Assembly (NCBI RefSeq): GCF_021134715.1
Contig: NC_060021.1
Location: forward strand, 5,456,001-5,520,000
Length of the DNA stretch: 64,000 nt
Direction: 5' to 3'
Source: Daphnia pulex
Taxonomy: Eukaryota; Arthropoda; Branchiopoda; Diplostraca; Daphniidae
Part shown: piece after piece, positions 15,455-64,000 of the stretch
Numbering within the stretch: position 1 is the first letter of the stretch
Layout: every line of letters starts with the position of its first letter
The notes under the pieces: model-generated
Told to the model about the DNA's origin: nothing
Database searches by the model: none
The model's input: only the letters and a program-made list of their open reading frames with translations
Program-made: the position numbers and the translations under genes

Positions 15455-15657
15455 CTAATTTGATGTTGCATGGATCTGCTCTTCCTAGTAAGAGACCAGG
15501 ACTCGTAGTATCGTTGAAAATCTCGTTGATTTTTTTTTAAATTGTTCTTTGTGCTGTGGAACAGTTGGGAAATTTAAAATAGAAGTAATCAATTGTAAAA
15601 CTGCTGTTGTGACGTCATGACCACTTATGAAATTGTTGTCCTATAAATAAGATTTGT

Positions 15658-15730
15658 AGTACTATGGCTTAGATGGAAAAGGGCCTGCCTAGTAAGTAGG
15701 AGATCACGAGTTCGAGTCTCGTTGGGACCT
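15658..15730 (+). tRNA. tRNA-Thr(AGU)-like, copy 1
   Basis: Class B, the first copy of the array; TATAAATA lies about 20 bp upstream. Confidence 0.4.
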
Positions 15731-16141
15731 GTAAGATATGTCATCATAATCATCCCGTGTCTCTTAGAAAACAGAAAAAGAACTGAAAGAATCGTTAAAA
15801 TAAATTATATTTTAGCGCAGAATACCGTTAAATTGCTAGTTATAATGATTATTTTCTTGGTAGTCTAATTTTGACTGCCAACTCAGGCACAATTCCATAG
15901 GTATTTTCCATGCTGATATTTAAACACCAAATCATAATAACTAATTGTGCAGCATGGATCTACTCTTCCTAGTAAGAGACCAGGACTCGTAGTATCGTTG
16001 AAAATCTCGTTGATTTTTTTGTAAATGGTTCTTTGTGCTGTGGAACAGTTGGGAACTTTAAAATAGAAGTAATCAATTGTAAAACTGCTGTTGTGAAGTC
16101 ATGACCACTTTTGAAATTGTTGTCCTATGAAAATGTTTTGT

Positions 16142-16214
16142 GGTACTATGGCTTAGATGGCAAAGCGCCTGCCTTGTAAGCAGGAGATCACGAGTTCGAG
16201 TCTCGTTGGGACCT
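16142..16214 (+). tRNA. tRNA-Thr(UGU)-like, copy 2
   Basis: Class A; D, anticodon and T stems are fully paired. Confidence 0.6.
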
Positions 16215-16625
16215 GTAAGAAATGTCATCATAATCATCCCGTGTCTCTTAGAAAACAGAAAAAGAACTGATAGAATCGTTAAAATAAGTTCTATTTTAGC
16301 GCTGAATACCGTTAAATTGCTAGATATAATGATTATTTTCTTGGTAATCTAATTTTGACCGCCTACTCGGGCACAATTCCATAGGTATTTTCCATGCTGA
16401 TATTAAAACACCAAATCATAATAACTAATTGTGCAGCATGGATCTGCTCTTCCTAGTAAGAGACCAGGACTCGTAGTATCGTTGAAAATCTCGTTGATTT
16501 TTTTTTAAATTGTTCTTTGTGCTGTGGAACAGTTGGGAAATTTAAAATAGAAGTAATCAATTGTAAAACTGCTGTTGTGACGTCATGACCACTTATGAAA
16601 TTGTTGTCCTATAAATAAGATTTGT

Positions 16626-16698
16626 AGTACTATGGCTTAGATGGAAAAGGGCCTGCCTAGTAAGTAGGAGATCACGAGTTCGAGTCTCGTTGGGACCT
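16626..16698 (+). tRNA. tRNA-Thr(AGU)-like, copy 3
   Basis: Class B; 968 bp from copy 1 and nearly identical. Confidence 0.4.
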
Positions 16699-17109
16699 GT
16701 AAGAAATGTCATCATAATTATCCCGTGTCTCTTAGAAAACAGAAAAAGAACTGAAAGAATCGTTAAAATAAATTATATTTTAGCGCAGAATACCGTTAAA
16801 TTGCTAGTTATAATGATTATTTTCTTGGTAGTCTAATTTTGACTGCCAACTCAGGCACAATTCCATAGGTATTTTCCATGCTGATATTTAAACACCAAAT
16901 CATAATAACTAATTGTGCAGCATGGATCTACTCTTCCTAGTAAGAGACCAGGACTCGTAGTATCGTTGAAAATCTCGTTGATTTTTTTGTAAATGGTTCT
17001 TTGTGCTGTGGAACAGTTGGGAACTTTAAAATAGAAGTAATCAATTGTAAAACTGCTGTTGTGAAGTCATGACCACTTTTGAAATTGTTGTCCTATGAAA
17101 AAGTTTTGT

Positions 17110-17182
17110 GGTACTATGGCTTAGATGGCAAAGCGCCTGCCTTGTAAGCAGGAGATCACGAGTTCGAGTCTCGTTGGGACCT
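17110..17182 (+). tRNA. tRNA-Thr(UGU)-like, copy 4
   Basis: Class A; 968 bp from copy 2. Confidence 0.6.
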
Positions 17183-17593
17183 GTAAGAAATGTCATCATA
17201 ATCATCCCGTGTCTCTTAGAAAACAGAAAAAGAACTGATAGAATCGTTAAAATAAGTTCTATTTTAGCGCTGAATACCGTTAAATTGCTAGATATAATGA
17301 TTATTTTCTTGGTAATCTAATTTTGACCGCCTACTCGGGCACAATTCCATAGGTATTTTCCATGCTGATATTAAAACACCAAATCATAATAACTAATTGT
17401 GCAGCATGGATCTGCTCTTCCTAGTAAGAGACCAGGACTCGTAGTATCGTTGAAAATCTCGTTGATTTTTTTTTAAATTGTTCTTTGTGCTGTGGAACAG
17501 TTGGGAAATTTAAAATAGAAGTAATCAATTGTAAAACTGCTGTTGTGACGTCATGACCACTTATGAAATTGTTGTCCTATAAATAAGATTTGT

Positions 17594-17666
17594 AGTACTA
17601 TGGCTTAGATGGAAAAGGGCCTGCCTAGTAAGTAGGAGATCACGAGTTCGAGTCTCGTTGGGACCT
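17594..17666 (+). tRNA. tRNA-Thr(AGU)-like, copy 5
   Basis: Class B; last copy before the first 806-bp insert. Confidence 0.4.
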
Positions 17667-17874
17667 GTAAGAAATGTCATCATAATCATCCCGTGTCTCT
17701 TAGAAAACAGAAAAAGAACTGAAAGAATCGTTAAAATAAATTATATTTTAGCGCAGAATACCGTTAAATTGCTAGTTATAATGATTATTTTCTTGGTAGT
17801 CTAATTTTGACTGCCAACTCAGGCACAATTCCATAGGTATTTTCCATGCTGATATTTAAACACCAAATCATAAA

Positions 17875-18680
17875 AATGCCACTGCGTGTCGGCCTTCGAG
17901 ATTTTATTGTTGTGAGGGTCGTTCGTATTTAAAAAATTACTATTCACTGATGATTCTATAGACTTGAAAAAGATTCTTTTACTATATACCTCCGATTGTC
18001 CAAAATGAAATAAATCCAAATCATCTATTGATTTTTCCATAATACTAATAGCGATAATAACACCGACTATTCGGCTAAATGATTCGTAGGTACTGCGAAA
18101 CTAGCAGGCGTAATTAATTGTCCTGTTCTTTTTTTGTGATGTAATATCCTGCATTGCCAGATCACGAAATAGTCCGTATCACACTCTGTCAAAGAAACTC
18201 CTCCCATTTCACGAAACTCCTCCCATTTCACACATATAAATATTCTTGTAAAATCAACCAAATCAGATGTTGAGATGAAATCTAGCACATTATTTGAAGA
18301 ATTTGATGGGGAATCGGAAGGAATTCACGCAACAACAAACAAACTTGGAATATGAGTCGCAGCTTTAAAAAACGTTTTTTCCCGCCCCTTTTGCACCTTC
18401 AACAATTCGTAACTAATTAACAACTTAACTTATCGTTATAAACTTTTGCGCGTTAGTTGGACAAACGTCTAAGGAATCGAATAAAGTTAACGCCAAGGGC
18501 TCACGTCAATTCATGCGAGCCACACCTGTGCCACAGTTTGTAAACTGTTATTCAGCCAATCACAGAGCGCCATTGATTCCCTTGGGTTTAAATAATAGTT
18601 TTTGGCCCTGTGTTCCTCCCCGCCCATTTATGCCGCTAAAAGCCTTCTAGATTTTCAATCAAGTTGAAAATCTCTCAGGG
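17875..18680. other. 806-bp unrelated insert in the array, first copy
   Basis: Non-array sequence interrupts a unit between CACCAAATCATAA and ATAACTAATTG. It holds two minus-strand frames of 73 codons, at 18067-18288 and 17819-18040 (the second runs into the array); neither is recognised. It has a direct repeat of CTCCTCCCATTTCAC (near 18201 and 18221), CCAAT-type motifs (CAGCCAATCACAGAG), and a perfect 10-bp hairpin at 18649-18673 close to its right end. Matching inverted termini and a clear target duplication are not visible. It could be a captured gene or promoter fragment or an unclassified element. Confidence 0.75.
18649..18673. repeat. Perfect hairpin at the right end of the insert
   Basis: AGATTTTCAA pairs with TTGAAAATCT around the loop TCAAG, 7 bp before the insert ends. 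A hairpin near one end recalls Helitron 3' ends, but the required CTRR terminus is absent. The array unit itself contains TTGAAAATCTC, so the arm could be array-derived. Confidence 0.6.
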
Positions 18681-18885
18681 ATAACTAATTGTGCAGCATG
18701 GATCTGCTCTTCCTAGTAAGAGACCAGGACTCGTAGTATCGTTGAAAATCTCGTTGATTTTTTTGTAAATGGTTCTTTGTGCTGTGGAACAGTTGGGAAC
18801 TTTAAAATAGAAGTAATCAATTGTAAAACTGCTGTTGTGACGTCATGACCACTTTTGAAATTGTTGGCCTATGAAAAAGTTTTGT

Positions 18886-18958
18886 GGTACTATGGCTTAG
18901 ATGGCAAAGCGCCTGCCTTGTAAGCAGGAGATCACGAGTTCGAGTATCGTTGGGACCT
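18886..18958 (+). tRNA. tRNA-Thr(UGU)-like, copy 6
   Basis: Class A2. Confidence 0.5.
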
Positions 18959-19371
18959 GTAAGAAATGTCATCACATTCATCCCGTGTCTCTTAGAAAAC
19001 AGAAAAAGAACTGATAGAATCGTTAAAATAAGTTCTATTTTAGCGCTGAATACCGTTAAATTGCTAGTTATAATGATTATTTTCTTGGTAATCTAATTTT
19101 GACCGCCTACTCGGGCCCAATTCCATAGGTATTTTCCATGCTGATATTTAAACACCAAATCATAAAAACTAATTGTGCAGCATGGATCTGCTCTTCCTAG
19201 TAAGAGACCAGGACTCGTAGTATCGTTGAAAATCTCGTTGATTGTTTTTTGTAAATTGTTCTTTGTGCTTTGGAACAGTTGGGAACTTTAAAATAGAAGT
19301 AATCAATTGTTAAACTGCTGTTGTGACGTCATGACCACTTTTGAAATTGTTGTCCTATGAAAAAAGCTTGT

Positions 19372-19444
19372 GGTCCTATGGGTTAGATGGCAAAGCGCCT
19401 GCCTTGTAAGCAGGAGATCACGAGTTCGAGTCTCGTTGGGACCT
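19372..19444 (+). tRNA. tRNA-Thr(UGU)-like, copy 7
   Basis: Class C; only the D-stem mismatch spoils an otherwise complete cloverleaf. Confidence 0.65.
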
Positions 19445-19855
19445 GTAAGAAATGTCATCATAATCATCCCGTGTCTCTTAGAAAACAGAAAAAGAACTGA
19501 TAGAATCGTTAAAACAAGTTCTATTTTAGCGCAGAATACCGTTAAATTGCTAGTTATAATGATTATTTTCTTGGTAGTCTAATTTTGACTGCCAACTCAG
19601 GCACAATTCCATAGGTATTTTCCATGCTGATATTTAAACACCAAATCATAATAACTAATTGTGCAGCATGGATCTGCTCTTCCTAGTAAGAGACCAGGAC
19701 TCGTAGTATCGTTGAAAATCTCGTTGATTTTTTTTTAAATTGTTCTTTGTGCTGTGGAACAGTTGGGAAATTTAAAATAGAAGTAATCAATTGTAAAACT
19801 GCTGTTGTGACGTCATGAACACTTATGAAATTGTTGTCCTATAAATAAGATTTGT

Positions 19856-19928
19856 GGTACTATGGCTTAGATGGAAAAGGGCCTGCCTAGTAAGTAGGAG
19901 ATCACGAGTTCGAGTCTCGTTGGGACCT
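19856..19928 (+). tRNA. tRNA-Thr(AGU)-like, copy 8
   Basis: Class B with G1 restored; duplicate of copy 5 at a distance of 2262 bp. Confidence 0.4.
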
Positions 19929-20136
19929 GTAAGAAATGTCATCATAATCATCCCGTGTCTCTTAGAAAACAGAAAAAGAACTGAAAGAATCGTTAAAATA
20001 AATTATATTTTAGCGCAGAATACCGTTAAATTGCTAGTTATAATGATTATTTTCTTGGTAGTCTAATTTTGACTGCCAACTCAGGCACAATTCCATAGGT
20101 ATTTTCCATGCTGATATTTAAACACCAAATCATAAA

Positions 20137-20942
20137 AATGCCACTGCGTGTCGGCCTTCGAGATTTTATTGTTGTGAGGGTCGTTCGTATTTAAAAAATT
20201 ACTATTCACTGATGATTCTATAGACTTGAAAAAGATTCTTTTACTATATACCTCCGATTGTCCAAAATGAAATAAATCCAAATCATCTATTGATTTTTCC
20301 ATAATACTAATAGCGATAATAACACCGACTATTCGGCTAAATGATTCGTAGGTACTGCGAAACTAGCAGGCGTAATTAATTGTCCTGTTCTTTTTTTGTG
20401 ATGTAATATCCTGCATTGCCAGATCACGAAATAGTCCGTATCACACTCTGTCAAAGAAACTCCTCCCATTTCACGAAACTCCTCCCATTTCACACATATA
20501 AATATTCTTGTAAAATCAACCAAATCAGATGTTGAGATGAAATCTAGCATATTATTTGAAGAATTTGATGGGGAATCGGAAGGAATTCACGCAACAACAA
20601 ACAAACTTGGAATATGAGTCGCAGCTTTAAAAAACGTTTTTTCCCGCCCCTTTTGCACCTTCAACAATTCGTAACTAATTAACAACTTAACTTATCGTTA
20701 TAAACTTTTGCGCGTTAGTTGGACAAACGTCTAAGGAATCGAATAAAGTTAACGCCAAGGGCTCACGTCAATTCATGCGAGCCACACCTGTGCCACAGTT
20801 TGTAAACTGTTATTCAGCCAATCACAGAGCGCCATTGATTCCCTTGGGTTTAAATAATAGTTTTTGGCCCTGTGTTCCTCCCCGCCCATTTATGCCGCTA
20901 AAAGCCTTCTAGATTTTCAATCAAGTTGAAAATCTCTCAGGG
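20137..20942. other. 806-bp unrelated insert in the array, second copy
   Basis: This is essentially identical to the insert at 17875-18680 and displaced by exactly 2262 bp. Both flanks are duplicated too, so it arose by duplication of insert plus flanking units, not by a second insertion. One visible difference is TAGCATATT here against TAGCACATT in the first copy. Confidence 0.85.
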
Positions 20943-21147
20943 ATAACTAATTGTGCAGCATGGATCTGCTCTTCCTAGTAAGAGACCAGGACTCGTAGTA
21001 TCGTTGAAAATCTCGTTGATTTTTTTGTAAATGGTTCTTTGTGCTGTGGAACAGTTGGGAACTTTAAAATAGAAGTAATCAATTGTAAAACTGCTGTTGT
21101 GACGTCATGACCACTTTTGAAATTGTTGGCCTATGAAAAAGTTTTGT

Positions 21148-21220
21148 GGTACTATGGCTTAGATGGCAAAGCGCCTGCCTTGTAAGCAGGAGATCACGAG
21201 TTCGAGTATCGTTGGGACCT
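21148..21220 (+). tRNA. tRNA-Thr(UGU)-like, copy 9
   Basis: Class A2; duplicate of copy 6 (2262 bp). Confidence 0.5.
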
Positions 21221-21633
21221 GTAAGAAATGTCATCACATTCATCCCGTGTCTCTTAGAAAACAGAAAAAGAACTGATAGAATCGTTAAAATAAGTTCTAT
21301 TTTAGCGCTGAATACCGTTAAATTGCTAGTTATAATGATTATTTTCTTGGTAATCTAATTTTGACCGCCTACTCGGGCACAATTCCATAGGTATTTTTAC
21401 TTGCTGATATTTAAACACCAAATCATAAAAACTAATTGTGCAGCATGGATCTGCTCTTCCTAGTAAGAGACCAGGACTCGTAGTATCGTTGAAAATCTCG
21501 TTGATTGTTTTTTGTAAATTGTTCTTTGTGCTTTGGAACAGTTGGGAACTTTAAAATAGAAGTAATCAATTGTTAAACTGCTGTTGTGACGTCATGACCA
21601 CTTTTGAAATTGTTGTCCTTTGAAAAGTTCTTT

Positions 21634-21706
21634 GATCCTATGGCTTAGATGGCAAAGCGCCTACCTTGTATTCAGAAGATCACTAGTTCGAGTCTCGTTG
21701 GGACCT
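21634..21706 (+). pseudogene. Degenerate tRNA-Thr-like, copy 10
   Basis: The anticodon stem is disrupted (CCTAC against TCAGA) and the T stem is altered (ACTAG). Confidence 0.6.
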
Positions 21707-22117
21707 GAAAGAAATGTCATCATAATCATCCCGTGTCTCTTAGAAAACAGAAAAAGAACTGATAGAATCGTTAAAATAAGTTCTATTTTAGCGCAGAATA
21801 CCGTTAAATTGCTAGTTATAATGATTATTTTCTTGGTAATCTAATTTTGACTGCCTAATCGGGCACAATTCCATAGGTATTTTCCATGCTGATATTAAAA
21901 CACCAAATCATAATAACTAATTGTGCAGCATGGATCTGCTCTTCCTAGTAAGAGACCAGGACTCGTAGTATCGTTGAAAATCTCGTTGATTTTTTTGTAA
22001 ATTGTTCTTTGTGCTGTGGAACAGTTGGGAACTTTAAAATAGAAGTAATCAATTGTAAAACTGCTGTTGTGACGTCATGACCACTTATAAAATTGTTGTC
22101 CTATGAAAAAGTTTTGT

Positions 22118-22190
22118 GGTCCTATTACTTAGAAGGCAAAGCGCCTGCCTAGTAAGAAGAAGATAACGAGTTCGAGTCTCGTTAGGACCT
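22118..22190 (+). pseudogene. Degenerate tRNA-Thr-like, copy 11
   Basis: The acceptor GGTCCTA/TAGGACC is perfectly complementary, but A10-C25 and two anticodon-stem mismatches break the rest; anticodon AGU. Confidence 0.6.
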
Positions 22191-22603
22191 GTAAGAAATG
22201 TCATCATAATCATCTCGTGTCTCTTAGAAAACAGAAAAAGAACTGATAGAATCGTTAAAATAAGCTCTATTTTAGCGCAGAATACCGTTAAATAGCTAGT
22301 TATAATGATTATTTTCTTGGTAGTCTAATTTTGACTGCCTACTCGGGGACAATTCCATAGGTATTTTCCATGCTGATATTTAAACACCAAATCATAAAAA
22401 CTAATTGTGCAGCATGGATCTGCTCTTCCTAGTAAGAGACCAGGACTCGTAGTATCGTTGAAAATCTCGTTGATTGTTTTTTGTAAATGGTTCTTTGTGC
22501 TTTGGAACAGTTGGGAACTTTAAAATAGAAGTAATCAATTGTTAAACTGCTGTTGTGACGTCATGACCACTTTTGAATTTGTTGTCCTATGAAAAAAGCT
22601 TGT

Positions 22604-22676
22604 GGTCCTATGGGTTAGATGGCAAAGCGCCTGCCTTGTAAGCAGGAGATCACGAGTTCGAGTCTCGTTGGGACCT
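22604..22676 (+). tRNA. tRNA-Thr(UGU)-like, copy 12
   Basis: Class C. Confidence 0.65.
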
Positions 22677-23086
22677 GTAAGAAATGTCATCATAATCATC
22701 CAGTGTCTCTTAGAAAACAGAAAAAGAACTGATAGAATCGTTAAAACAAGTTCTATTTTAGCGCAGAATACCGTTAAATTGCTAGTTATAATGATTATTT
22801 CTTTATAGTCTAATTTTGACTGCCAACTCAGGCACAATTCCATAGGTATTTTCCATGCTGATATTTAAACACCAAATCATAATAACTAATTGTGCAGCAT
22901 GGATCTGCTCTTCCTAGTAAGAGACCAGGACTCGTAGAATCGTTGAAAATCTCGTTGATTTTTTGGTAAATGGTTCTTTGTGCTGTGGAACAGTTGGGAA
23001 CTTTAAAATAGAAGTAATCAATTGTTAAACTGCTGTTGTGACGTCATGACCACTTTTGAAATTGTTGGCCTATGAAAAAATTTTGT

Positions 23087-23159
23087 GGTACTATGGCTTA
23101 GATGGCAAAGCGCCTGCCTTGTAAGCAGGAGATCACGAGTTCGAGTATCGTTGGGACCT
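23087..23159 (+). tRNA. tRNA-Thr(UGU)-like, copy 13
   Basis: Class A2. Confidence 0.5.
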
Positions 23160-23572
23160 GTAAGAAATGTTATCACAAACATCCCGTGTCTCTTAGAAAA
23201 CAGAAAAAGAACTGATAGAATCGTTAAAATAAGTTCTATTTTAGCGCTGAATACCGTTAAATTGCTAGTTATAATGATTATTTTCTTGGTAATCTAATTT
23301 TGACCGCCTACTCGGGCACAATTCCATAGGTATTTTCCATGCTGATATTTAAACACCAAATCATAAAAACTAATTGTGCAGCATGGATCTGCTCTTCCTA
23401 GTAAGAGACCAGGACTCGTAGTATCGTTGAAAATCTCGTTGATTGTTTTTTGTAAATTGTTCTTTGTGCTTTGGAACAGTTGGGAACTTTAAAATAGAAG
23501 TAATCAATTGTTAAACTGCTGTTGTGACGTCATGACCACTTTTGAAATGGTTGTCCTATGAGAAAGTTTTGT

Positions 23573-23645
23573 GGTACTATGGCTTAGATGGCAAAGCGCC
23601 TGCCTTGTAAGCAGGAGATCACGAGTTCGAGTCTCGTTGGGACCT
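23573..23645 (+). tRNA. tRNA-Thr(UGU)-like, copy 14
   Basis: Class A. Confidence 0.6.
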
Positions 23646-25583: not shown

Positions 25584-25996
25584 GTAAGAAATGTCATCAT
25601 AATCATCCCGTGTCTCTTAGAAAACAGAAGAAGAACTGATAGAATCGTTAAAATAAATTATATTTTAGCGCAGAATACCGTTAAATTGCTAGTTATAATG
25701 ATTATTTTCTTAGTAGTCTAATTTTGACTGCCTACTCGGGCACAATTCCATAGGTATTTTCCATGCTGATATTTAAACACCAAATCATAATAACTAATTG
25801 TTCAGCATGGATCTGCTCATCCTAGTAAGAGACCAGGACTCGTAGTATCGTTGAAAATCTCGTTGATTTTTTTTTGTAAATTGTCCTTTTTGCTTTGGAA
25901 CAGTTGGTAACTTTAAAATAGAAGTAATCAATTGTAAAACTGCTGTTGTGACGTCATGACCACTTATAAAATTGTTGTCCTATGAATAAGTTTTGT

Positions 25997-26069
25997 GGTC
26001 CTATTGCTTAGATGGCAAAGCGCCTGCCTAGTAAGCCGAAGATAACGAGATCGAGTCTCGTTGGGAACT
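25997..26069 (+). pseudogene. Degenerate tRNA-Thr(AGU)-like, copy 19
   Basis: The anticodon stem is GCCGA, the B box is altered (AGATCGAG) and the 3' acceptor is TGGGAAC. Confidence 0.55.
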
Positions 26070-26481
26070 GTAAGAAATGTCATCATAATTATCCCGTTAC
26101 TCTTAGAAAACGGAAAAAGAACTGATAGAATCGTTAAAATAAGTTCTATTTTAGTGCAGAATACCGTTAAATTGCTAGTTATATTGATTATTTTCTTGGT
26201 AGTCTAATTTTGACTGCCTACTCGGGGACAATTCCATAGGTATTTTCCATGCTGATATTTAAACACCAAATCATAATAACTAATTGTGCAGCATGGATCT
26301 GCTCTTCCTAGTAAGAGACCAGGACTCGTAGTATCGTTTGAAATCTCGTTGATTTTTTTTTGTAAATTGTTCTTTGTGCTGTGGAACAGTTGGGAACTTT
26401 AAAATAGAAGTAATCAATTGTTAAACTGCTGTTGTGACGTCATGACCACTTTTGAAATTGTTGTCCTTTGAAAAGTTCTTT

Positions 26482-26554
26482 GATCCTATGGATTAGATGG
26501 CAAAGCGCCTGCCTTGTAAGCAGGAGATCACGAGTTCGAGTCTCGTTGGGACCT
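26482..26554 (+). tRNA. tRNA-Thr(UGU)-like, copy 20
   Basis: Class D; start of a five-unit higher-order repeat of 2426 bp. Confidence 0.45.
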
Positions 26555-26965
26555 GAAAGAAATTTCATCATAATCATCCCGTGTCTCTTAGAAAACAGAA
26601 AAAGAACTGATATAATCGTTAAAACAAGTTCTATTTTAGCGCAGAATACCGTTAAATTGCTAGTTATAATGATTATTTTCTTGGTAGTCTAATTTTGACT
26701 GCCAACTCAGGCACAATTCCATAGGAATTTTCCATGCTGATATTTAAACACCAAATCATAATAACTAATTGTGCAGCATGGATCTGCTCTTCCTAGTAAG
26801 AGACTAGGACTCGTAGTATCGTTGAAAATCTCGTTGATTTTTTTGTAAATTGTTCTTTGTGCTGTGGAACAGTTGGGAAATTTAAAATAGAAGTAATCAA
26901 TTGTAAAACTGCTGTTGTGACGTCATGACCACTTACGAAATTGTTGTCCTATAAATAAGATTTGT

Positions 26966-27038
26966 GGTACTATGGCTTAGATGGCAAAGCGCCTGCCTAG
27001 TAAGCAGGAGATCACGAGTTCGAGTCTCGTTGGGACCT
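26966..27038 (+). tRNA. tRNA-Thr(AGU)-like, copy 21
   Basis: Class I, one of the best AGU copies, with TATAAATA upstream. Confidence 0.6.
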
Positions 27039-27451
27039 GTAAGAAATGTCATCATAATCATCCCGTGTCTCTTAGAAAACAGAAAAAGAACTGATAGAAT
27101 CGTTAAAACAAGTTCTATTTTAGCGCAGAATACCGTTAAATTGCTAGTTATAATGATTATTTTCTTGGTAGTCTAATTTTGACTGCCAACTCAGGCACAA
27201 TTCCATAGGAATTTTCCATGCTGATATTTAAACACCAAATCATAAAAACTAATTGTGCAGCATGGATCTGCTCTTCCTAGTAAGAGACCAGGACTCGTAG
27301 TATCGTTTGAAATCTCGTTGATTGTTTTTTGTAAATTGTTCTTTGTGCTTTGGAACCGTTGGGAACTTTAAAATAGAAGTAATCAATTGTTAAACTGCTG
27401 TTGTGACGTCATGACCACTTTTGAAATTGTTGTCCTATGAAAAAAGTTTGT

Positions 27452-27524
27452 GGTCCTATGGGTTAGTTGGCAAAGCGCCTGCCTTGTAAGCAGGAGATCA
27501 CGAGTTCGAGTCTCGTTGGGACCT
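27452..27524 (+). tRNA. tRNA-Thr(UGU)-like, copy 22
   Basis: Class C with D loop AGTTGGC. Confidence 0.6.
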
Positions 27525-27936
27525 GAAAGAAATGTCATCATAATCATCCCGTGTCTCTTAGAAAACAGAAGAAGAATTAATAGAATCGTTAAAATAAATT
27601 ATATTTTAGCGCAGAATACCGTTAAATAGCTAGTTATAATGATTATTTTCTTGGTAGTCTAATTTTGACTGCCTACTCGGGCACAATTCCATAGGTATTT
27701 TCCATGCTGATATTTAAACACCAAATCATAATAACTAATTGTTCAGCATGGATCTGCTCTTCCTAGTAAGAGACCAGGACTCGTAGTATCGTTGAAAATC
27801 TCGTTGATTTTTTTTTGTAAATTGTTCTTTTTGCTTTGGAACAGTTGGTAACTTTAAAATAGAAGTAATCAATTGTAAAACTGCTGTTGTGACGTCATGA
27901 CCACTTTTGAAATTGTTGTCCTTTGAAAAGTTCTTT

Positions 27937-28009
27937 GATCCTATGGATTAGATGGCAAAGCGCCTGCCTTGTAAGCAGGAGATCACGAGTTCGAGTCTCG
28001 TTGGGACCT
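27937..28009 (+). tRNA. tRNA-Thr(UGU)-like, copy 23
   Basis: Class D. Confidence 0.45.
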
Positions 28010-28422
28010 GAAAGAAATTTCATCATAATCATCCCGTGTCTCTTAGAAAACAGAAAAAGAACTGATATAATCGTTAAAACAAGTTCTATTTTAGCGCAGA
28101 ATACCGTTAAATTGCTAGTTATAATGATTATTTTCTTGGTAGTCTAATTTTGACTGCCAACTCAGGCACAATTCCATAGGAATTTTCCATGCTGATATTT
28201 AAACACCAAATCATAATAACTAATTGTGCAGCATGGATCTGCTCTTCCTAGTAAGAGACCAGGACTCGTAGTATCGTTGAAAATCTCGTTGATTTTTTTT
28301 TGTAAATTGTCCTTTTTGCTTTGGAACAGTTGGTAACTTTAAAATAGAAGTAATCAATTGTAAAACTGCTGTTGTGACGTCATGACCACTTATAAAATTG
28401 TTGTCCTATGAATAAGTTTTGT

Positions 28423-28495
28423 GGTCCTATTGCTTAGATGGCAAAGCGCCTGCCTAGTAAGCCGAAGATAACGAGATCGAGTCTCGTTGGGAACT
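28423..28495 (+). pseudogene. Degenerate tRNA-Thr(AGU)-like, copy 24
   Basis: Same lesions as copy 19, 2426 bp away, so duplicated with it. Confidence 0.55.
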
Positions 28496-28907
28496 GTAAG
28501 AAATGTCATCATAATTATCCCGTTACTCTTAGAAAACGGAAAAAGAACTGATAGAATCGTTAAAATAAGTTCTATTTTAGTGCAGAATACCGTTAAATTG
28601 CTAGTTATATTGATTATTTTCTTGGTAGTCTAATTTTGACTGCCTACTCGGGGACAATTCCATAGGTATTTTCCATGCTGATATTTAAACACCAAATCAT
28701 AATAACTAATTGTGCAGCATGGATCTGCTCTTCCTAGTAAGAGACCAGGACTCGTAGTATCGTTTGAAATCTCGTTGATTTTTTTTTGTAAATTGTTCTT
28801 TGTGCTGTGGAACAGTTGGGAACTTTAAAATAGAAGTAATCAATTGTTAAACTGCTGTTGTGACGTCATGACCACTTTTGAAATTGTTGTCCTTTGAAAA
28901 GTTCTTT

Positions 28908-28980
28908 GATCCTATGGATTAGATGGCAAAGCGCCTGCCTTGTAAGCAGGAGATCACGAGTTCGAGTCTCGTTGGGACCT
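28908..28980 (+). tRNA. tRNA-Thr(UGU)-like, copy 25
   Basis: Class D; counterpart of copy 20. Confidence 0.45.
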
Positions 28981-29391
28981 GAAAGAAATTTCATCATAAT
29001 CATCCCGTGTCTCTTAGAAAACAGAAAAAGAACTGATATAATCGTTAAAACAAGTTCTATTTTAGCGCAGAATACCGTTAAATTGCTAGTTATAATGATT
29101 ATTTTCTTGGTAGTCTAATTTTGACTGCCAACTCAGGCACAATTCCATAGGAATTTTCCATGCTGATATTTAAACACCAAATCATAATAACTAATTGTGC
29201 AGCATGGATCTGCTCTTCCTAGTAAGAGACTAGGACTCGTAGTATCGTTGAAAATCTCGTTGATTTTTTTGTAAATTGTTCTTTGTGCTGTGGAACAGTT
29301 GGGAAATTTAAAATAGAAGTAATCAATTGTAAAACTGCTGTTGTGACGTCATGACCACTTACGAAATTGTTGTCCTATAAATAAGATTTGT

Positions 29392-29464
29392 GGTACTATG
29401 GCTTAGATGGCAAAGCGCCTGCCTAGTAAGCAGGAGATCACGAGTTCGAGTCTCGTTGGGACCT
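29392..29464 (+). tRNA. tRNA-Thr(AGU)-like, copy 26
   Basis: Class I; counterpart of copy 21. Confidence 0.6.
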
Positions 29465-29877
29465 GTAAGAAATGTCATCATAATCATCCCGTGTCTCTTA
29501 GAAAACAGAAAAAGAACTGATAGAATCGTTAAAACAAGTTCTATTTTAGCGCAGAATACCGTTAAATTGCTAGTTATAATGATTATTTTCTTGGTAGTCT
29601 AATTTTGACTGCCAACTCAGGCACAATTCCATAGGAATTTTCCATGCTGATATTTAAACACCAAATCATAAAAACTAATTGTGCAGCATGGATCTGCTCT
29701 TCCTAGTAAGAGACCAGGACTCGTAGTATCGTTTGAAATCTCGTTGATTGTTTTTTGTAAATTGTTCTTTGTGCTTTGGAACCGTTGGGAACTTTAAAAT
29801 AGAAGTAATCAATTGTTAAACTGCTGTTGTGACGTCATGACCACTTTTGAAATTGTTGTCCTATGAAAAAAGTTTGT

Positions 29878-29950
29878 GGTCCTATGGGTTAGTTGGCAAA
29901 GCGCCTGCCTTGTAAGCAGGAGATCACGAGTTCGAGTCTCGTTGGGACCT
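29878..29950 (+). tRNA. tRNA-Thr(UGU)-like, copy 27
   Basis: Class C, D loop AGTTGGC; counterpart of copy 22. Confidence 0.6.
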
Positions 29951-30362
29951 GAAAGAAATGTCATCATAATCATCCCGTGTCTCTTAGAAAACAGAAGAAG
30001 AATTAATAGAATCGTTAAAATAAATTATATTTTAGCGCAGAATACCGTTAAATAGCTAGTTATAATGATTATTTTCTTGGTAGTCTAATTTTGACTGCCT
30101 ACTCGGGCACAATTCCATAGGTATTTTCCATGCTGATATTTAAACACCAAATCATAATAACTAATTGTTCAGCATGGATCTGCTCTTCCTAGTAAGAGAC
30201 CAGGACTCGTAGTATCGTTGAAAATCTCGTTGATTTTTTTTTGTAAATTGTTCTTTTTGCTTTGGAACAGTTGGTAACTTTAAAATAGAAGTAATCAATT
30301 GTAAAACTGCTGTTGTGACGTCATGACCACTTTTGAAATTGTTGTCCTTTGAAAAGTTCTTT

Positions 30363-30435
30363 GATCCTATGGATTAGATGGCAAAGCGCCTGCCTTGTAA
30401 GCAGGAGATCACGAGTTCGAGTCTCGTTGGGACCT
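30363..30435 (+). tRNA. tRNA-Thr(UGU)-like, copy 28
   Basis: Class D; counterpart of copy 23. Confidence 0.45.
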
Positions 30436-30846
30436 GAAAGAAATTTCATCATAATCATCCCGTGTCTCTTAGAAAACAGAAAAAGAACTGATATAATCGT
30501 TAAAACAAGTTCTATTTTAGCGCAGAATACCGTTAAATTGCTAGTTATAATGATTATTTTCTTGGTAGTCTAATTTTGACTGCCAACTCAGGCACAATTC
30601 CATAGGAATTTTCCATGCTGATATTTAAACACCAAATCATAATAACTAATTGTGCAGCATGGATCTGCTCTTCCTAGTAAGAGACTAGGACTCGTAGTAT
30701 CGTTGAAAATCTCGTTGATTTTTTTGTAAATTGTTCTTTGTGCTGTGGAACAGTTGGGAAATTTAAAATAAAAGTAATCAATTGTAAAACTGCTGTTGTG
30801 ACGTCATGACCACTTATGAAATTGTTGTCCTATAAATAAGATTTGT

Positions 30847-49699: not shown

Positions 49700-49739
49700 T
49701 GACCACTTTTGAAATTGTTGTCCTATGAAGCTGTTTTGT

Positions 49740-56040: not shown

Positions 56041-56113
56041 GGTACTATGGCTTAGATGGCAAAGCGCCTGCCTAGTAAGCAGGATATCACGAGTTCGAGT
56101 CTCGTTGGGACCT
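56041..56113 (+). tRNA. tRNA-Thr(AGU)-like, copy 81
   Basis: Class I, variable loop ATATC. Confidence 0.6.
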
Positions 56114-56527
56114 GTAAGAAATGTCATCATAATCATCCCGTGTCTCTTAGAAAACAGAAAAAGAACTGAGAGAATCGTTAAAATAAGTTCTATTTTAGCG
56201 CAGAATACCGTTAAATTGCTAGTTATAATGATTATTTTCTTGGTAGTCTAATTTTGACTGCCTACTCGGGCACAATTCCATAGGTATTTTCCATGCTGAT
56301 ATTTAAACACCAAATCATAATAACTAATTGTGCAGCATGGATCTGCTCTTCCTAGTAAGAGACCAGGACTCGTAGTATCGTTGAAAATCTCGTTGATTTT
56401 TTTTTTGTAAATTGTTCTTTGTGCTTTGGAACAGTTTTGAACTTTAAAATAGAAGTAATCAATTGTTAAACTGCTGTTGTGACGTCATGACCACTTTTGA
56501 AATTGTTGTCCTATGAAGCTGTTTCGT

Positions 56528-56600
56528 GGTCCTATGGGTTAAATGGCAAAGCGCCAGCCTAGTAAGTAGGAGATCACGAGTTCGAGTCTCGTTGGGACCT
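56528..56600 (+). tRNA. tRNA-Thr(AGU)-like, copy 82
   Basis: Class G with anticodon-stem 3' strand GTAGG. Confidence 0.4.
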
Positions 56601-57014
56601 GTAAAAAATGTCATCATCATCATCCCGTGTCTCTTAGAAAACAGAAAAAGAACTGAAAGAATCGTTAAAATAAGTTCTATTTTAGCGCAGAATACCGTTA
56701 AAATGCTAGTTATAATGATTATTTTCTTGGTAGTCTAATTTTGACTGCCTACTCGGGCACAATTCCGTAGGTATTTTCCATGCTGATATTTAAACACCAA
56801 ATCATAATAACTAATTGTGCAGCATGGATCTGCTCTTCCTAGTAAGAGACCAGGACTCGTAGTATCGTTGAAAATCTCGTTGATTTTTTTTTTGTAAATT
56901 GTTCTTTGTGCTTTGGAACAGTTTTGAACTTTAAAATAGAAGTAATCAATTGTTAAACTGCTGTTGTGACGTCATGACCACTTTTGAAATTGTTGTCCTA
57001 TGAAGCTGTTTCGT

Positions 57015-57087
57015 GGTCCTATGGGTTAAATGGCAAAGCGCCAGCCTAGTAAGCAGGAGATCACGAGTTCGAGTCTCGTTGGGACCT
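57015..57087 (+). tRNA. tRNA-Thr(AGU)-like, copy 83
   Basis: Class G. Confidence 0.45.
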
Positions 57088-57498
57088 GTAAGAAATGTCA
57101 TCATAATCATCCCGTGTCTCTTAGAAAACAGAAAAAGAACTGAAAGAATCGTTAAAATAAGTTCTATTTTAGCGCAGAATACCGTTAAAATGCTAGTTAT
57201 AATGATTATTTTCTTGGTAGTCTAATTTTGACTGCCTACTCGGGCACAATTCCGTAGGTATTTTCCATGCTGATATTTAAACACCAAATCATAATAACTA
57301 ATTGTGCAGCATGGATCTGCTCTTCCTAGTAAGAGACCAGGACTCGTAGTATCGTTGAAAATCTCGTTGATTTTTTTGTAAATTGTTCTTTGTGCTGTGG
57401 AACAGTTGGGAACTTTAAAATAGAAGTAATCAATTGTAAAACTGCTGTTGTGACGTCATGACCACTTTTGCAATTGTTGTCCTATGAAGATGTTTTGT

Positions 57499-57571
57499 GG
57501 TACTATGGCTTAGATGGCAAAGCGCCTGCCTAGTAAGCAGGATATCACGAGTTCGAGTCTCATTGGGACCT
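57499..57571 (+). tRNA. tRNA-Thr(AGU)-like, copy 84
   Basis: Class F. Confidence 0.5.
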
Positions 57572-57982
57572 GTAAGAAATGTCATCATAATCATCCCGTG
57601 TCTCTTAGAAAACAGAGAAAGAACTGATAGAATCGTTAAAATAAGTTCTATTTTAGCGCAGAATACCGTTAAAATGCTAGTTATAATGATTATTTTCTTG
57701 GTAGTCTAATTTTGACTGCCTACTCGGGCACAATTCCATAGGTATTTTCCATGCTGATATTTAAACACCAAATCATAATAACTAATTGTGCTGCATGGAT
57801 CTGCTCTTCCCAGTAAGAGACCAGGACTCGTAGTATCGTTGAAAATCTCGTTGATTTTTTTGTAAATTGTTCTTTGTGCTGTGGAACAGTTGGGAACTTT
57901 AAAATAGAAGTAATCAATTGTAAAACTGCTGTTGTGACGTCATGACCACTTTTGAAATTGTTGTCCTATGTAGCTGTTTTGT

Positions 57983-58055
57983 GGTACTATGGCTTAGATG
58001 GCAAAGCGCCTGCCTAGTAAGCAGGATATCACGAGTTCGAGTCTCGTTGGGGCCT
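57983..58055 (+). tRNA. tRNA-Thr(AGU)-like, copy 85
   Basis: Class H. Confidence 0.5.
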
Positions 58056-58466
58056 GTAAGAAATGTCATCATAATTATCCCGTGTCTCTTAGTAAACAGA
58101 AAAAGAACTGATAGAATCGATAAATTAAGTTCTATTTTAGCGCAGAATACCGTTAAATTGCTAGTTATAATGATTATTTTCTTGGTAGTCTAATTTTGAC
58201 TGCCTACTCGGGCACAATTCCATAGGTATTTTCCATGCTGATATTTAAACACCAAATCATAATAACTAATTGTGCAGCATGGATCTGCTCTTCCTAGTAA
58301 GAGACCAGGACTCGTAGTATCGTTGAAAATCTCGTTGATTTTTTTGTAAATTGTTCTTTGTGCTGTGGAACAGTTGGGAACTTTAAAATAGAAGTAATCA
58401 ATTGTAAAACTGCTGTTGTGACGTCATGACCACTTTTGCAATTGTTGTCCTATGAAGATGTTTTAT

Positions 58467-58539
58467 GGTACTATGGCTTAGATGGCAAAGCGCCTGCCTA
58501 GTAAGCAGGATATCACGAGTTCGAGTCTCATTGGGACCT
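58467..58539 (+). tRNA. tRNA-Thr(AGU)-like, copy 86
   Basis: Class F. Confidence 0.5.
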
Positions 58540-58950
58540 GTAAGAAATGTCGTCATAATCATCCCGTGTCTCTCAGAAAACAGAAAAAGAACTGAGAGAA
58601 TCGTTAAAATAAGTTCTATTTTAGCGCAGAATACCGTTAAATTGCTAGTTATAATGATTATTTTCTTGGTAGTCTAATTTTGACTGCCTACTCGGGCACA
58701 ATTCCATAGGTATTTTCCATGCTGATATTTAATTACCAAATCATAATAACTAATTGTGCTGCATGGATCTGCTCTTCCTAGTAAGAGACCAGGACTCGTA
58801 GTATCGTTGAAAATCTCGTTGATTTTTTTGTAAATTGTTCTTTGTGCTGTGGAACAGTTGGGAACTTTAAAATAGAAGTAATCAATTGTAAAACTGCTGT
58901 TGTGACGTCATGACCACTTTTGAAATTGTTGTTCTATGAAACTGTTTTGT

Positions 58951-59023
58951 GGTCCTATGGGTTAGATGGCAAAGCGCCTGCCTAGTAAGCAGGAGATCAC
59001 GAGATCGAGTCTCGTTGGGACCT
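58951..59023 (+). tRNA. tRNA-Thr(AGU)-like, copy 87
   Basis: The acceptor is fully paired; G11-G24 mismatch and an altered B box (AGATCGAG). Confidence 0.45.
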
Positions 59024-59435
59024 GTAATAAATGTCATCATAATCATCCCGTGTCTCTTAGAAAACAGAAAAAGAACTGATAGAATCGTCAAAATAAGTTC
59101 TATTTTAGCGCAGAATACCGTTAAATTGCTAGCTATAATAATTATTTTCTAGGTTATCTAATTTTGACTGCCTACTCGGGCACAATTCCATAGGTATTTT
59201 CCGTGCTGAAATTTAAACACCAAATCATAATAAATAATTGTGCTGCATGGATCTGCTCTTCCTAGTAAGAGACCAGGACTCGTAGTATCGTTGAAAATCT
59301 CGTTGATTTTTTTTTGTAAATTGTTCTTTGTGCTTTGGAAAAGTTGGGAACTTTAAAATAGAAGTAATCAATTGTTAAACTGCTGTTGTGACGTCATGAC
59401 CACTTTTTTAATTGTTGTCCTATGAAAAGTTCTTT

Positions 59436-59508
59436 GGTCCTATGGCTAAGATGGCAAATCGCCTGCCTAGTAAGCAGGAGATCACGAGTTCGAGTCTCGT
59501 TGGGACCT
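59436..59508 (+). tRNA. tRNA-Thr(AGU)-like, copy 88
   Basis: The acceptor is fully paired; the D arm is altered (GCTA against AATC). Confidence 0.5.
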
Positions 59509-59919
59509 GTAAAAAGTGTCATCATCATCATCCCGTGTCTCTTAGAAAACAGAAAAAGAACTGAAAGAATCGTTAAAATAAGTTCTATTTTAGAGCAGAA
59601 TACCGTTAAATTGCTAGTTATAATGATTATTTTCTTGGTAGTCTAATTTTGACTGCCTACTCGGGCACAATTCCATAGGTATTTTCCATGCTGAAATTTA
59701 AACACCAAATCATAATAACTAATTGTGCTGCATGGATCTGTTCTTCCTAGTAAGAGACCAGGACTCGTAGTAACGTTGAAAATCTGGTTGATTTTTTTGT
59801 AAATTGTTCTTTGTGATGTGGAACAGTTGGCAACTTTAAAATAGAAGTAATCAATTGTAAAACTGCTCTTGTGACGTCATGACCACTTTTGAAATTGTTG
59901 TCCTATGAAGCTGTATTGT

Positions 59920-59992
59920 TGTCCTATGGCTTCGATGGCAAAGCGCCTGCACACTAAGCAGGAGATCACGAGTTCGAGTCTCGTTGGGACAT
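59920..59992 (+). pseudogene. Degenerate tRNA-Thr-like, copy 89
   Basis: G1 and C72 are lost, and the anticodon loop is ACACTAA without the invariant U33. Confidence 0.6.
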
Positions 59993-60403
59993 GTAAGAAA
60001 TGTCATCATAATCATCCCGTGTCTCTTAGAAAACAGAAAAAGAACTGATGGAATCGTTAAAATAAGTTCTATTTTAGCGCAGAATACCGTTAAAATGCTA
60101 GTTATAATGATTATTTTCTTTGTAATCTAATTTTGACTTCCTACTCGGGCACAATTCCACAGGTATTTTCCATGCTGAAATTTAAACACCAAATCATAAT
60201 AACTAATTGTGCTGCATGGATCTGCTCTTCCTAGTACGAGACCAGGACTCGTAGTATCGTTGAAAATCTCGTTGATTTTTTTGTAAATGGTTTTTTGTGC
60301 TGTGGAACATTTGGGAACTTAAAAATAGAAGTAATCAATTGTGAAACTGCTGTTGTGACGTCATGACCACTTTTGAAATTGTTGTCCTATGAAATAGGTT
60401 TGT

Positions 60404-60476
60404 GGTCCTATGGCTTAGATAGCAAAGCGCCTACCTAGTAGGCAGGAGATCACGAGTTCGAGTCTCGTTGGGACCT
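60404..60476 (+). tRNA. tRNA-Thr(AGU)-like, copy 90
   Basis: Acceptor and D stems are paired (D loop AGATAGCA); the anticodon stem is CCTAC/GCAGG with one A-C mismatch and loop CTAGTAG. Confidence 0.5.
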
Positions 60477-60886
60477 GTAATAAATGTCATCATAATCTTC
60501 CCGTGTCTCTTAGAAAACAGTAAAAGAACTGATAGAATCGTCAAAATAAGTTCTATTTAAGCGCAGAATACCGTTAAATTGCTAGCTATAATAATTATTT
60601 TCTAGGTAATCTAATTTTGACTGCCTACTCGGGCACAATTCCATAGGTATTTTCCGTGCTGAAATTTAAACACCAAATCATAATAACTAATTGTGCTGCA
60701 TGGATCTGCTCTTCCTAGTAAGAGACCAGGACTCGTAGTATCGTTGAAAATCTCGTTGATTTTTTTGTAAATTGTTCTTTGTGCTGTGGAACAGTTGGGA
60801 ACTTTAAAATAGAAGTAATCAATTGTAAAACTGCTGTTGTGACGTCATGACCACTTTTGAAATGGTTGTCCTATGAAATAATTTTT

Positions 60887-60959
60887 GGTCCTATGGCTTA
60901 GATGGCAAATCGCCTGCCTAGTAAGCAGGAGATCACGAGTTCGAGTCTCGTTGGGACCT
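60887..60959 (+). tRNA. tRNA-Thr(AGU)-like, copy 91
   Basis: The acceptor is fully paired; a single D-stem mismatch (C11-U24, AATC). Confidence 0.6.
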
Positions 60960-61370
60960 GTAAGAAATGTCATCATCATCATCCCGTGTCTCTTAGAAAA
61001 CAGAAAAAGAACTGATAGAATCGTTAAAATAAGTTCTATTTTAGCGCAGAATACCGTTAAAATGCTAGTTATAATGATTATTTTCTTGGTAATCTAATTT
61101 TGACTTCCTACTCGGGCACAATTCCACAGGTATTTTCCATGCTGAAATTTAAACATCAAATCATAATAACTAATTGGGCTGCATGGATCTGCTCTTCCTA
61201 GTAACAGACGAGGACTCGTAGTATCGTTGAAAATCTCGTTGATTTTTTTGTAAATTGTTCTTTGTGCTGTGGAACAGTTGGAAACTTTAAAATAGAAGTA
61301 ATCAATTGTAAAACTGCTGTTGTGACGTCATGACCACTTTTGAAATTGTTGTCCTATGAAATAAGTTAGT

Positions 61371-61443
61371 GGTCCTATGGCTTAGATGGCAAAGCGCCTG
61401 CCTAGTAAGCAGGAGATCACGAGTTCGAGTCTCGTTGGGACCT
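61371..61443 (+). tRNA. tRNA-Thr(AGU), fully paired copy 92
   Basis: This is the only copy I find with every stem paired: acceptor GGTCCTA/TGGGACC (one U-G wobble), D GCTT/AAGC, anticodon CCTGC/GCAGG with loop CTAGTAA, and T ACGAG/CTCGT with loop TTCGAGT. The A box (TGGCTTAGATGG) and B box (GTTCGAGTC) are intact, and the variable loop is AGATC. Anticodon AGU (read as IGU) decodes Thr ACU/ACC. There is no intron and no encoded CCA. It is the best candidate for a functional or founder gene. Confidence 0.8.
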
Positions 61444-61856
61444 GTAATAAATGTCATCATCATCATCCCGTGTCTCTTAGAAAACAGAAAAAGAACTGAT
61501 AGAATCGTTAAAATAAGTTCTATTTAAGCGCAGAATACCGTTAAATTGCTAGCTATAATAATTATTTTCTAGGTAATCTAATTTTGACTGCCTACTCGCG
61601 CACAATTCCATAGGTATTTTCCATGCTGATATTTAAACACCAAATCATAATAACTAATTGTGCAGCATGGATCTGCTCTTCCTAGTAAGAGACCAGGACT
61701 CGTAGTATCGTTGAAAATCTCGTTGATTTTTTTTTGTAAATTGTTCTTTGTGCTTTGGAACAGTTGGGAACTTTAAAATAGAAGTAATCAATTGTTAAAC
61801 TGCTGTTGTGACGTCATGACCACTTTTGAAATTGTTGTCCTATGAAGCTGTTTTGT

Positions 61857-61929
61857 GGTCCTATGGGTTAAATGGCAAAGCGCCAGCCTAATAAGCAGGA
61901 TATGACGAGTTCGAGTCTCGTTGGGACCT
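61857..61929 (+). tRNA. tRNA-like copy 93, anticodon AAU
   Basis: Class G relative whose loop reads CTAATAA, giving an Ile-type anticodon on a Thr body; the T stem is also altered (TGACGAG context). Confidence 0.4.
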
Positions 61930-62343
61930 GTAAGAAATGTCATCATCATCATCCCGTGTCTCTTAGAAAACAGAAAAAGAACTGAAAGAATCGTTAAAAT
62001 AAGTTCTATTTTAGCGCAGAATACCGTTAAAATGCTAGTTATAATGATTATTTTCTTGGTAGTCTAATTTTGACTGCCTACTCGGGCACAATTCCATAGG
62101 TATTTTCCATGCTGATATTTAAACACCAAATCATAATAACTAATTGTGCAGCATGGATCTGCTCTTCCTAGTAAGAGACCAGGACTCGTAGTATCGTTGA
62201 AAATCTCGTTGATTTTTTTTTTGTAAATTGTTCTTTGTGCTTTGGAACAGTTTTGAACTTTAAAATAGAAGTAATCAATTGTTAAACTGCTGTTGTGACG
62301 TCATGACCACTTTTGAAATTGTTGTCCTATGAAGCTGTTTCGT

Positions 62344-62416
62344 GGTCCCTTGGGTTAAATGGCAAAGCGCCAGCCTAGTAAGCAGGAGAACACGAGTTCG
62401 AGTCTCGTTGAGACCT
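62344..62416 (+). tRNA. tRNA-Thr(AGU)-like, copy 94
   Basis: Class G with acceptor changes (GGTCCCT, TGAGACC). Confidence 0.35.
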
Positions 62417-62827
62417 GTAAGAAATGTCATCATCATCATCCCGTGTCTCTTAGAAAACAGAAAAAGAACTGATAGAATCGTTAAAATAAGTTCTATTTTA
62501 GCGCAGAATACCGTTAAATTGCTATTTATAATGATTATTTTCTTGGTAGTCTAATTTTGACTGCCTACTCGGGCACAATCCCATAGTTATTTTCCATGCT
62601 GATATTTAAACGCCAAATCATAATACCTAATTGTGCTGCATGGATCTGCTCTTCCTAGTAAGAGACCAGGACTCGTAGTATCGTTGAAAATCTCGTTGAT
62701 TTTTTTGTAAATTGTTCTTTGTGCTGTGGAACAGTTGGGAACTTTAAAATAGAAGTAATCAATTGTAAAACTGCTGTTGTGACGTCATGACCACTTTTGC
62801 AATTGTTGTCCTATGAAGATGTTATGT

Positions 62828-62900
62828 GGTACTATGGCTTAGATGGCAAAGCGCCTGCCTAGTAAACATGATATCACGAGTTCGAGTCTCATTGGGACCT
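62828..62900 (+). pseudogene. Degenerate tRNA-Thr-like, copy 95
   Basis: Class F relative with the anticodon-stem 3' strand changed to ACATG; anticodon AGU. Confidence 0.5.
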
Positions 62901-63314
62901 GTAAGAAATGTCATCATAATCATCCCGTGTCTCTTAGAAAACAGAAAAAGAACTGATAGAATCGTTAAAATAAGATCTATTTTAGCGCAGAATACCGTTA
63001 AATTGCTAGTTATAATGATTATTTTCTTGGTAGTCTAATTTTGACTGCCTACTCGGGGGCAATTCCATAGGTATTTTCCATGCTGATATTTAAACACCAA
63101 ATCATAATAACTAATTGTGCTGCATGGATCTGCTCTTCCTAGTAAGAGACCAGGACTCGTAGTATCGTTGAAAATCTCGTTGATTTTTTTTTTGTAAATT
63201 GTTCTTTGTGCTTTGGAACAGTTGGGAACTTTAAAATAGAAGTAATCAATTGTTAAACTGCTGTTGTGACGTCATGACCACTTTTGAAATTGTTGTCCTA
63301 TGAAGCTGTTTTGT

Positions 63315-63387
63315 GGTCCTATGGGTTAAATGGCAAAGCGCCAGCCTAGTAAGCAGGATATCACGAGTTCGAGTCTCGTTGGGACCT
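63315..63387 (+). tRNA. tRNA-Thr(AGU)-like, copy 96
   Basis: Class G. Confidence 0.45.
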
Positions 63388-63798
63388 GTAAGAAATGTCA
63401 TCATCATCATCCCGTGTCTCTTAGAAAACAGAAAAAGAACTGAAAGAATCGTTAAAATAAGTTCTATTTTAGCGCAGAATACCGTTAAAATGCTAGTTAT
63501 AATGATTATTTTCTTGGTAGTCTAATTTTGACTGCCTACTCGGGCACAATTCCATAGGTATTTTCCATGCTGATATTTAAACACCAAATCATAATAACTA
63601 ATTGTGCAGCATGGATCTGCTCTTCCTAGTAAAAGACCAGGACTCGTAGTATCGTTGAAAATCTCGTTGATTTTTTTGTAAATTGTTCTGTGTGCTGTGG
63701 AACAGTTGGGAACTTTAAAATAGAAGTAATCAATTGTAAAACTGCTGTTGTGACGTCATGACCACTTTTGCAATTGTTGTCCTTTGAAGATGTTTTGT

Positions 63799-63871
63799 GG
63801 TACTATGGCTTAGATGGCAAAGCGCCTGCCTAGTAAGCAGGATATCACGAGTTCGAGTCTCATTGGGACCT
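63799..63871 (+). tRNA. tRNA-Thr(AGU)-like, copy 97
   Basis: Class F; the last copy in the window. Its unit is cut by the window edge. Confidence 0.5.
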
Positions 63872-64000
63872 GTAAGAATTGTCGTCATAATCATCCCGTG
63901 TCTCTTAGAAAACAGAAAAAGAACTGAGAGAATCGTTAAAATAAGTTCTATTTTAGCGCAGAATACCGTTAAATTGCTAGCTATAATAATTATTTTCTAG

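Follow-up and report, generated by a model that had tools for sequence, protein, structure and literature searches.

The window, that is, the entire 64,000-nucleotide stretch of Daphnia pulex DNA that we analysed, contains a long tandem array that is probably a satellite, the monomer of which (about 484 bp) carries a nuclear tRNA-Thr gene together with an older, degenerate tRNA-Thr half; the array is thus probably not a set of some 97 tRNA genes kept by selection. We observed the array itself, duplications of blocks of units, two tRNA-Thr-related segments per unit, no detectable constraint and no nearby TTTT. The monomer would have originated from a tRNA gene. Its spread, through gene conversion or unequal crossing-over, would have taken place in blocks, the largest of which count at least five units, and regardless of the state of the tRNA. 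As a consequence of such indiscriminate spread, nearly all copies would be pseudogenes or near-pseudogenes, and the array would add little or nothing to the tRNA pool.

Structure and surroundings of the array

An earlier note on this DNA had described a tandem array at positions 15455-64000 that runs off the edge of the window, with units of 484-487 bp. In the assembled sequence the array is borne out by two anchors, a 22-nt sequence from the 3' end of the tRNA (at most 5 mismatches allowed) and a 38-nt sequence from the start of the unit (at most 8 allowed), each of which counts 97 head-to-tail units. The run-off at the edge stands as well; the start of the first unit, as placed by the anchors, is 15,468 and not 15,455. 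Anchor-to-anchor spacings of 481-487 bp, a slightly wider range than that proposed, account for 94 of the 97 units, and the exceptions are two spacings of 1,292 bp and a last one of 392 bp, where the unit is cut by the window edge. Both long spacings (units starting at 17,404 and 19,666) arise because one and the same 808-bp insert sits in each of these units. A tandem-repeat search with TRF, a check of the kind proposed in the note, returned periods of 484-486 with 94-95% matches.

15468-64000, forward strand: tandem array, 97 units within the window, the last cut by its edge (anchor counts and spacings, TRF)
17874-18681, no strand assigned: 808-bp insert in unit 5 (sequence comparison)
20136-20943, no strand assigned: the 808-bp insert again, here in unit 8, with 99.88% identity to the copy in unit 5 (sequence comparison)

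A long head-to-tail array of non-coding units exceeding 100 bp is one of the two testable features of a satellite, and this is what the 97 units, 94 of them spaced at 481-487 bp, represent. The only open reading frame of at least 100 amino acids in the array lies antisense across a unit, including its tRNA (22535-22843, reverse strand, 102 amino acids), and is likely to lead to false protein predictions.

The first 15.4 kb of the window hold eukaryotic-looking split genes. Pfam matches were obtained for seven of the ten open frames scanned (ribosomal protein L11, RRP36, Rad51 in two frames, WD40, AMP-binding and the AMP-binding C-terminal domain), and the array starts about 0.5 kb past the last AMP-binding frame. 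No homology was found between this left flank and the unit end (score 26 versus a shuffle mean of 25.5). In the AMP-binding gene, 26-bp inverted repeats (96%) located between two of its frames flank about 870 bp at 13817-14687, an element that looks like a small transposon. Further repeats in the flank are 32-bp inverted repeats (91%) at 10531-12120, which enclose 1.6 kb with a 320-amino-acid open frame lacking a Pfam match, and a 14-bp unit present in 4.4 copies at 131-192 (TRF).

Amplification in blocks

Pairwise identity among the units averages 95.2%, with a minimum of 90.9%, and six runs of 3-5 consecutive units recur within the array at mean identities of 99.5-99.96%. The strongest of these is a five-unit block that has been duplicated next to itself.

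25805-28230, forward strand: five-unit block, units 19-23, 99.96% identical to units 24-28
28231-30656, forward strand: second copy of the block, units 24-28, in which the damaged 37.2-bit tRNA is repeated (identity, Rfam scores)

The first tRNA copy of the block reaches only 37.2 bits in both blocks. As this poor copy was amplified along with its block, amplification is independent of a sound tRNA. In units 1-54, moreover, identity at lag 2 exceeds that at lag 1 (96.2% versus 94.7%), and this dimeric pattern goes along with an alternation of AGT and TGT copies in some stretches of the array. The mean identity, the lag-2 pattern and the six runs together amount to the concerted evolution and block amplification that constitute the second testable feature of a satellite. 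In satellites, such patterns are usually caused by unequal exchange or conversion. The 808-bp insert was likewise duplicated together with its surroundings; it has no open reading frame of at least 100 amino acids, its Rfam matches are all weak and fall far short of the gathering threshold, and it holds a 19-bp tandem duplication (TRF).

A tRNA-derived SINE that turned tandem would also yield a monomer in which a tRNA head is followed by unrelated sequence, and SINE-derived satellites have been described for reptiles in the available part of PMC10702118. Such an element should leave interspersed copies, and these are absent from both the 15.5-kb flank and the insert (best E 0.078); we regard this origin as highly improbable.

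The tRNA-Thr-like segments

The same position is occupied by a tRNA-Thr-like segment in all 97 units.

15658-15730, forward strand: first tRNA-Thr-like segment, anticodon AGT, 43.3 bits (Rfam, ARAGORN)
59920-59992, forward strand: fully paired copy with anticodon ACT, called tRNA-Ser, 49.2 bits (ARAGORN, Rfam, stem pairs)
61371-61443, forward strand: fully paired tRNA-Thr (AGT) with the top score of 66.6 bits (Rfam, stem-pair count)
63799-63871, forward strand: last tRNA-Thr-like segment (Rfam in 97 of 97 units, ARAGORN 93)

The claim that every unit bears a tRNA-Thr-like cloverleaf is correct by score and breaks down at the level of the stems. Every one of the 97 segments lies at or above the Rfam gathering threshold for tRNA of 29 bits (range 34.0-66.6 bits), and the possibility that covariance scores would reject nearly all copies has thereby fallen away. 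A fold recognised by the covariance model is also what a functional cluster should display. Intact stems in most copies would be expected as well, and here 95 of the 97 copies contain at least one non-standard pair. All 21 stem pairs are present in just two copies, one of which has the Ser anticodon; one pair is broken in 25 copies, two in 55, three in 10, four in 4 and five in a single copy, so that 70 of the 97 carry at least two broken pairs. A single mismatched pair in a stem is not enough on its own to inactivate a tRNA.

ARAGORN reported 93 tRNAs (91 Thr, 1 Ser and 1 Ile). Among all 97 copies the anticodons are AGT in 60, TGT in 35, and ACT and AAT in one each. The TGT copies lie mostly before 42.4 kb (33 of 52 copies there, versus 2 of 45 after it), and, among the 96 units aligned, anticodon bases 35-36 differ in only two. 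The 97 segments comprise 43 distinct sequences; an A4-G69 mismatch in the acceptor stem is one of the array's own variants.

Among the internal promoter boxes, GTTCGANNC, the core of the T-arm promoter, is intact in 86 of the 97 copies and the A box, under a strict pattern, in 55, while GGTTCGANNCC occurs in none of the 97 tRNA copies. TATAAA is found within 40 nt upstream of 20 of the 97 tRNA segments, 19 of which are AGT copies. A TTTT within 40 nt past the tRNA end, the Pol III terminator that a functional cluster should possess, is present in none of the 97 units; the first TTTT downstream is located at 80 nt in 91 of them and at 75-122 nt in the remaining six. Given that all copies pass the Rfam threshold and 86 retain GTTCGANNC, some tRNA copies of the array may, to judge from their sequence, be transcribed and may even work.

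Constraint on the tRNA segment

Selection for tRNA function should become apparent as a deficit of changes in the tRNA segment relative to the rest of the unit. In tests on 96 units, from which the cut last unit was left out, no sign of purifying selection was detected, and changes were in excess instead. Parsimony counts, which presuppose a tree and hence suffer from recombination among units, gave 83 changes in the tRNA. At the base-specific rates of the remainder of the unit, 60.1 would be expected when columns 176-190 are set aside and 66.3 when they are included. Paired sites did not change less than unpaired ones (53 changes at 42 sites versus 30 at 31). Rare variants, the counting of which needs no tree, numbered 40 in the tRNA segment versus 26.0 expected from the rest of the unit (P 0.006). 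This excess recurs in both parts of the array (units 1-54, 21 versus 12.2; units 55-96, 33 versus 17.0) and in both anticodon classes (TGT copies, 12 versus 5.4; copies with A34, 29 versus 17.2). Paired sites account for 24 of the rare changes; two of these are unscorable, their pairs being already non-standard in the consensus, and 18 of the 22 scorable ones break the pair, versus about 72% expected.

Broken pairs per difference amounted to 0.57. Neutral simulations (1,000 runs) gave 0.44 +/- 0.11 (SD) and a mean of 22 intact copies where 2 are seen; as the observed mean was not exceeded in 78% of the runs, the simulation speaks for an absence of constraint and not for damage beyond neutrality.

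These data bear directly on the view that the array is a working tRNA-Thr cluster, amplified for a greater supply of tRNA-Thr, which would require no more than a fraction of sound copies and which is perhaps silent in most tissues and active in a few, as is the Arabidopsis SYY cluster. Scores of up to 66.6 bits with all 97 copies above the Rfam threshold, a Thr anticodon kept in 95 of the 97 copies and the T-arm promoter core in 86 agree with it, and so does a published case, described in the available part of PMC12308677, in which a tandem cluster of tRNA genes that includes variant copies becomes active again in root tips. Set against this are tRNA changes in excess in every subset tested, full pairing in 2 of 97 copies, and not one unit with a TTTT within 40 nt, and we consider a working cluster unlikely for the part of the array within the window, beyond which a selected core could lie. 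The proposal of an amplified tRNA gene family finds no support for the bulk of the copies, even though the Thr copy at 61,371-61,443 has all its stem pairs. A tRNA-derived satellite, the reading likewise put forward in the earlier note, is supported, since block amplification ignores damage to the tRNA and the tRNA segment shows no sign of purifying selection. With both testable features of a satellite present, and with intact stems, a nearby terminator and purifying selection all missing from the features of a functional cluster, we file the array among tRNA-containing satellites.

The excess of changes deserves a comment of its own. It is seen in rare variants and in base-adjusted counts; 89% of column shuffles hold some 73-column window with at least the step count of the tRNA, which is an argument against regarding the tRNA as a mutation hot spot in its own right. 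Directly upstream of each tRNA, unit columns 176-190 form a hypervariable stretch of 15 bp with 3.0 parsimony steps per site, versus a unit mean of 0.89. Germline transcription of the tRNA segments by Pol III might cause both the rare-variant excess (1.5- to 2.2-fold) and this hypervariable stretch, a tentative idea that we hold to be rather unlikely.

A second tRNA-Thr-like half and the least variable block of the unit

About 200 bp upstream of the main tRNA, each unit contains a second segment related to tRNA-Thr.

15481-15516, forward strand: degenerate second tRNA-Thr-like half in the first unit (unit columns 14-49; present in all 97 units; local alignment to tRNA)

Columns 14-49 align with the anticodon-to-T-arm part of the same tRNA-Thr with 28 matches in 40 columns, 4 of which are gaps. 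This alignment score was reached by none of 3,000 dinucleotide-shuffled versions of the remaining unit sequence, the individual units score 28-36 in all 97 cases, and none of 876 flank windows attained the consensus score (best 22). Rfam, searched with one unit at E up to 10, did not report the second half as a tRNA, and we therefore take it to be a sequence relic. The notion of a compound small-RNA locus, also raised in the earlier note, is upheld only as a matter of sequence, through this second half; in Rfam, tRNA is the only family found in the units at threshold.

The second half falls within columns 1-62, the least variable block of the unit (0.34 steps per site versus 0.89; an equally low 62-column window occurs in 1% of column shuffles). 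This block could be thought to encode the main product of the array, either a Pol III RNA ending at a T-run or a spliced-leader-like RNA, with the tRNA as a passenger. The 21 parsimony changes versus 49.4 expected and the low rate per site would fit such a small RNA, as would the run of at least six T that follows the block in nearly every unit; the consensus also holds a donor-like GTAAGA along with the T-run. Its fold is no better than that of shuffles (z -0.2 to 0.7), an Rfam match is absent, the deficit of rare variants is weak (13 versus 21.1, P 0.04) and not significant in any subset, and the block is in part explained as the tRNA-Thr relic, so that a small RNA of this kind is very improbable as the main product.

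There may be a likeness to an insect snRNA promoter. A second RNA gene at the unit start (R1), be it a Pol III small RNA or a spliced leader, was dropped as the main reading for want of a fold signal and an Rfam match.

Implications

Every copy passes the standard tRNA threshold and yet shows no selection for tRNA function. This calls for caution, as the thousands of tRNA genes counted in some animal genomes may partly be satellite units, and pseudogene or near-pseudogene copies would inflate annotated tRNA counts. According to the available parts of two Daphnia genome papers, 5,374 and 2,614 tRNA genes were counted (PMC9820869 and PMC10570034), and arrays like that at 15468-64000 may make up part of such numbers. 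If the idea of germline transcription were true, the array would document, in nature and free of selection, the transcription-associated mutation of tRNA genes; its roughly one hundred side-by-side replicates could serve to gauge mutation at tRNA sequences, with the rest of each unit as an internal control.

Related sequences and comparison with known systems

A blastn search with one unit hit 532 plasmid and 58 phage records. The matches listed (20 plasmid, 20 phage) cover 12-13% of the query, within the tRNA, and 14 of the 20 phage matches listed fall on annotated tRNA-Thr; we read this as general tRNA likeness and not as a sign of origin. An exact 21-mer from the unit start had no match in viral_contigs or genome_contigs, nor did a 30-base pattern from the tRNA core in viral_contigs. 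Among the papers listed in our literature searches, none reported a tRNA-Thr satellite from any crustacean, which is weak evidence of absence, and the word tRNA does not occur in the available part of a paper on D. pulex tandem repeats (PMC3152781).

Published systems are compared here as presented in the available parts of the respective papers. Amphibian satellites containing Pol III or tRNA-related sequences, namely Cynops PolIII/TAN, Xenopus OAX or satellite I, and Rana/polIII, are, like the Daphnia array, tandem repeats with a tRNA-related segment, and the Cynops unit of about 360 nt is transcribed in vitro (PMC10702118). The Daphnia array differs in possessing a clear tRNA-Thr (34.0-66.6 bits) and a second, degenerate half in each unit.

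The Arabidopsis SYY tRNA-Ser/Tyr cluster shares with our array tandem tRNA units that include variant and pseudogene copies. It comprises two isotypes, 32 of its 54 clustered tRNA-Tyr share a major sequence, and its expression has been shown (PMC12308677), whereas the array described here has a single isotype and 43 distinct sequences among 97 copies, with no constraint seen. A copy-variable tandem repeat with tRNA genes is also known from human 1q23.3, but its unit is 7.3 kb long and GC-rich, with five tRNA genes that form the part conserved with mouse (PMC4041453). The tRNA arrays of Entamoeba are likewise built from tandem units bearing tRNA; they fall into 25 array types that hold almost all tRNA genes, and most unit copies are uniform within an isolate (PMC2652664). 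The copies in the Daphnia array, in contrast, diverge and break.
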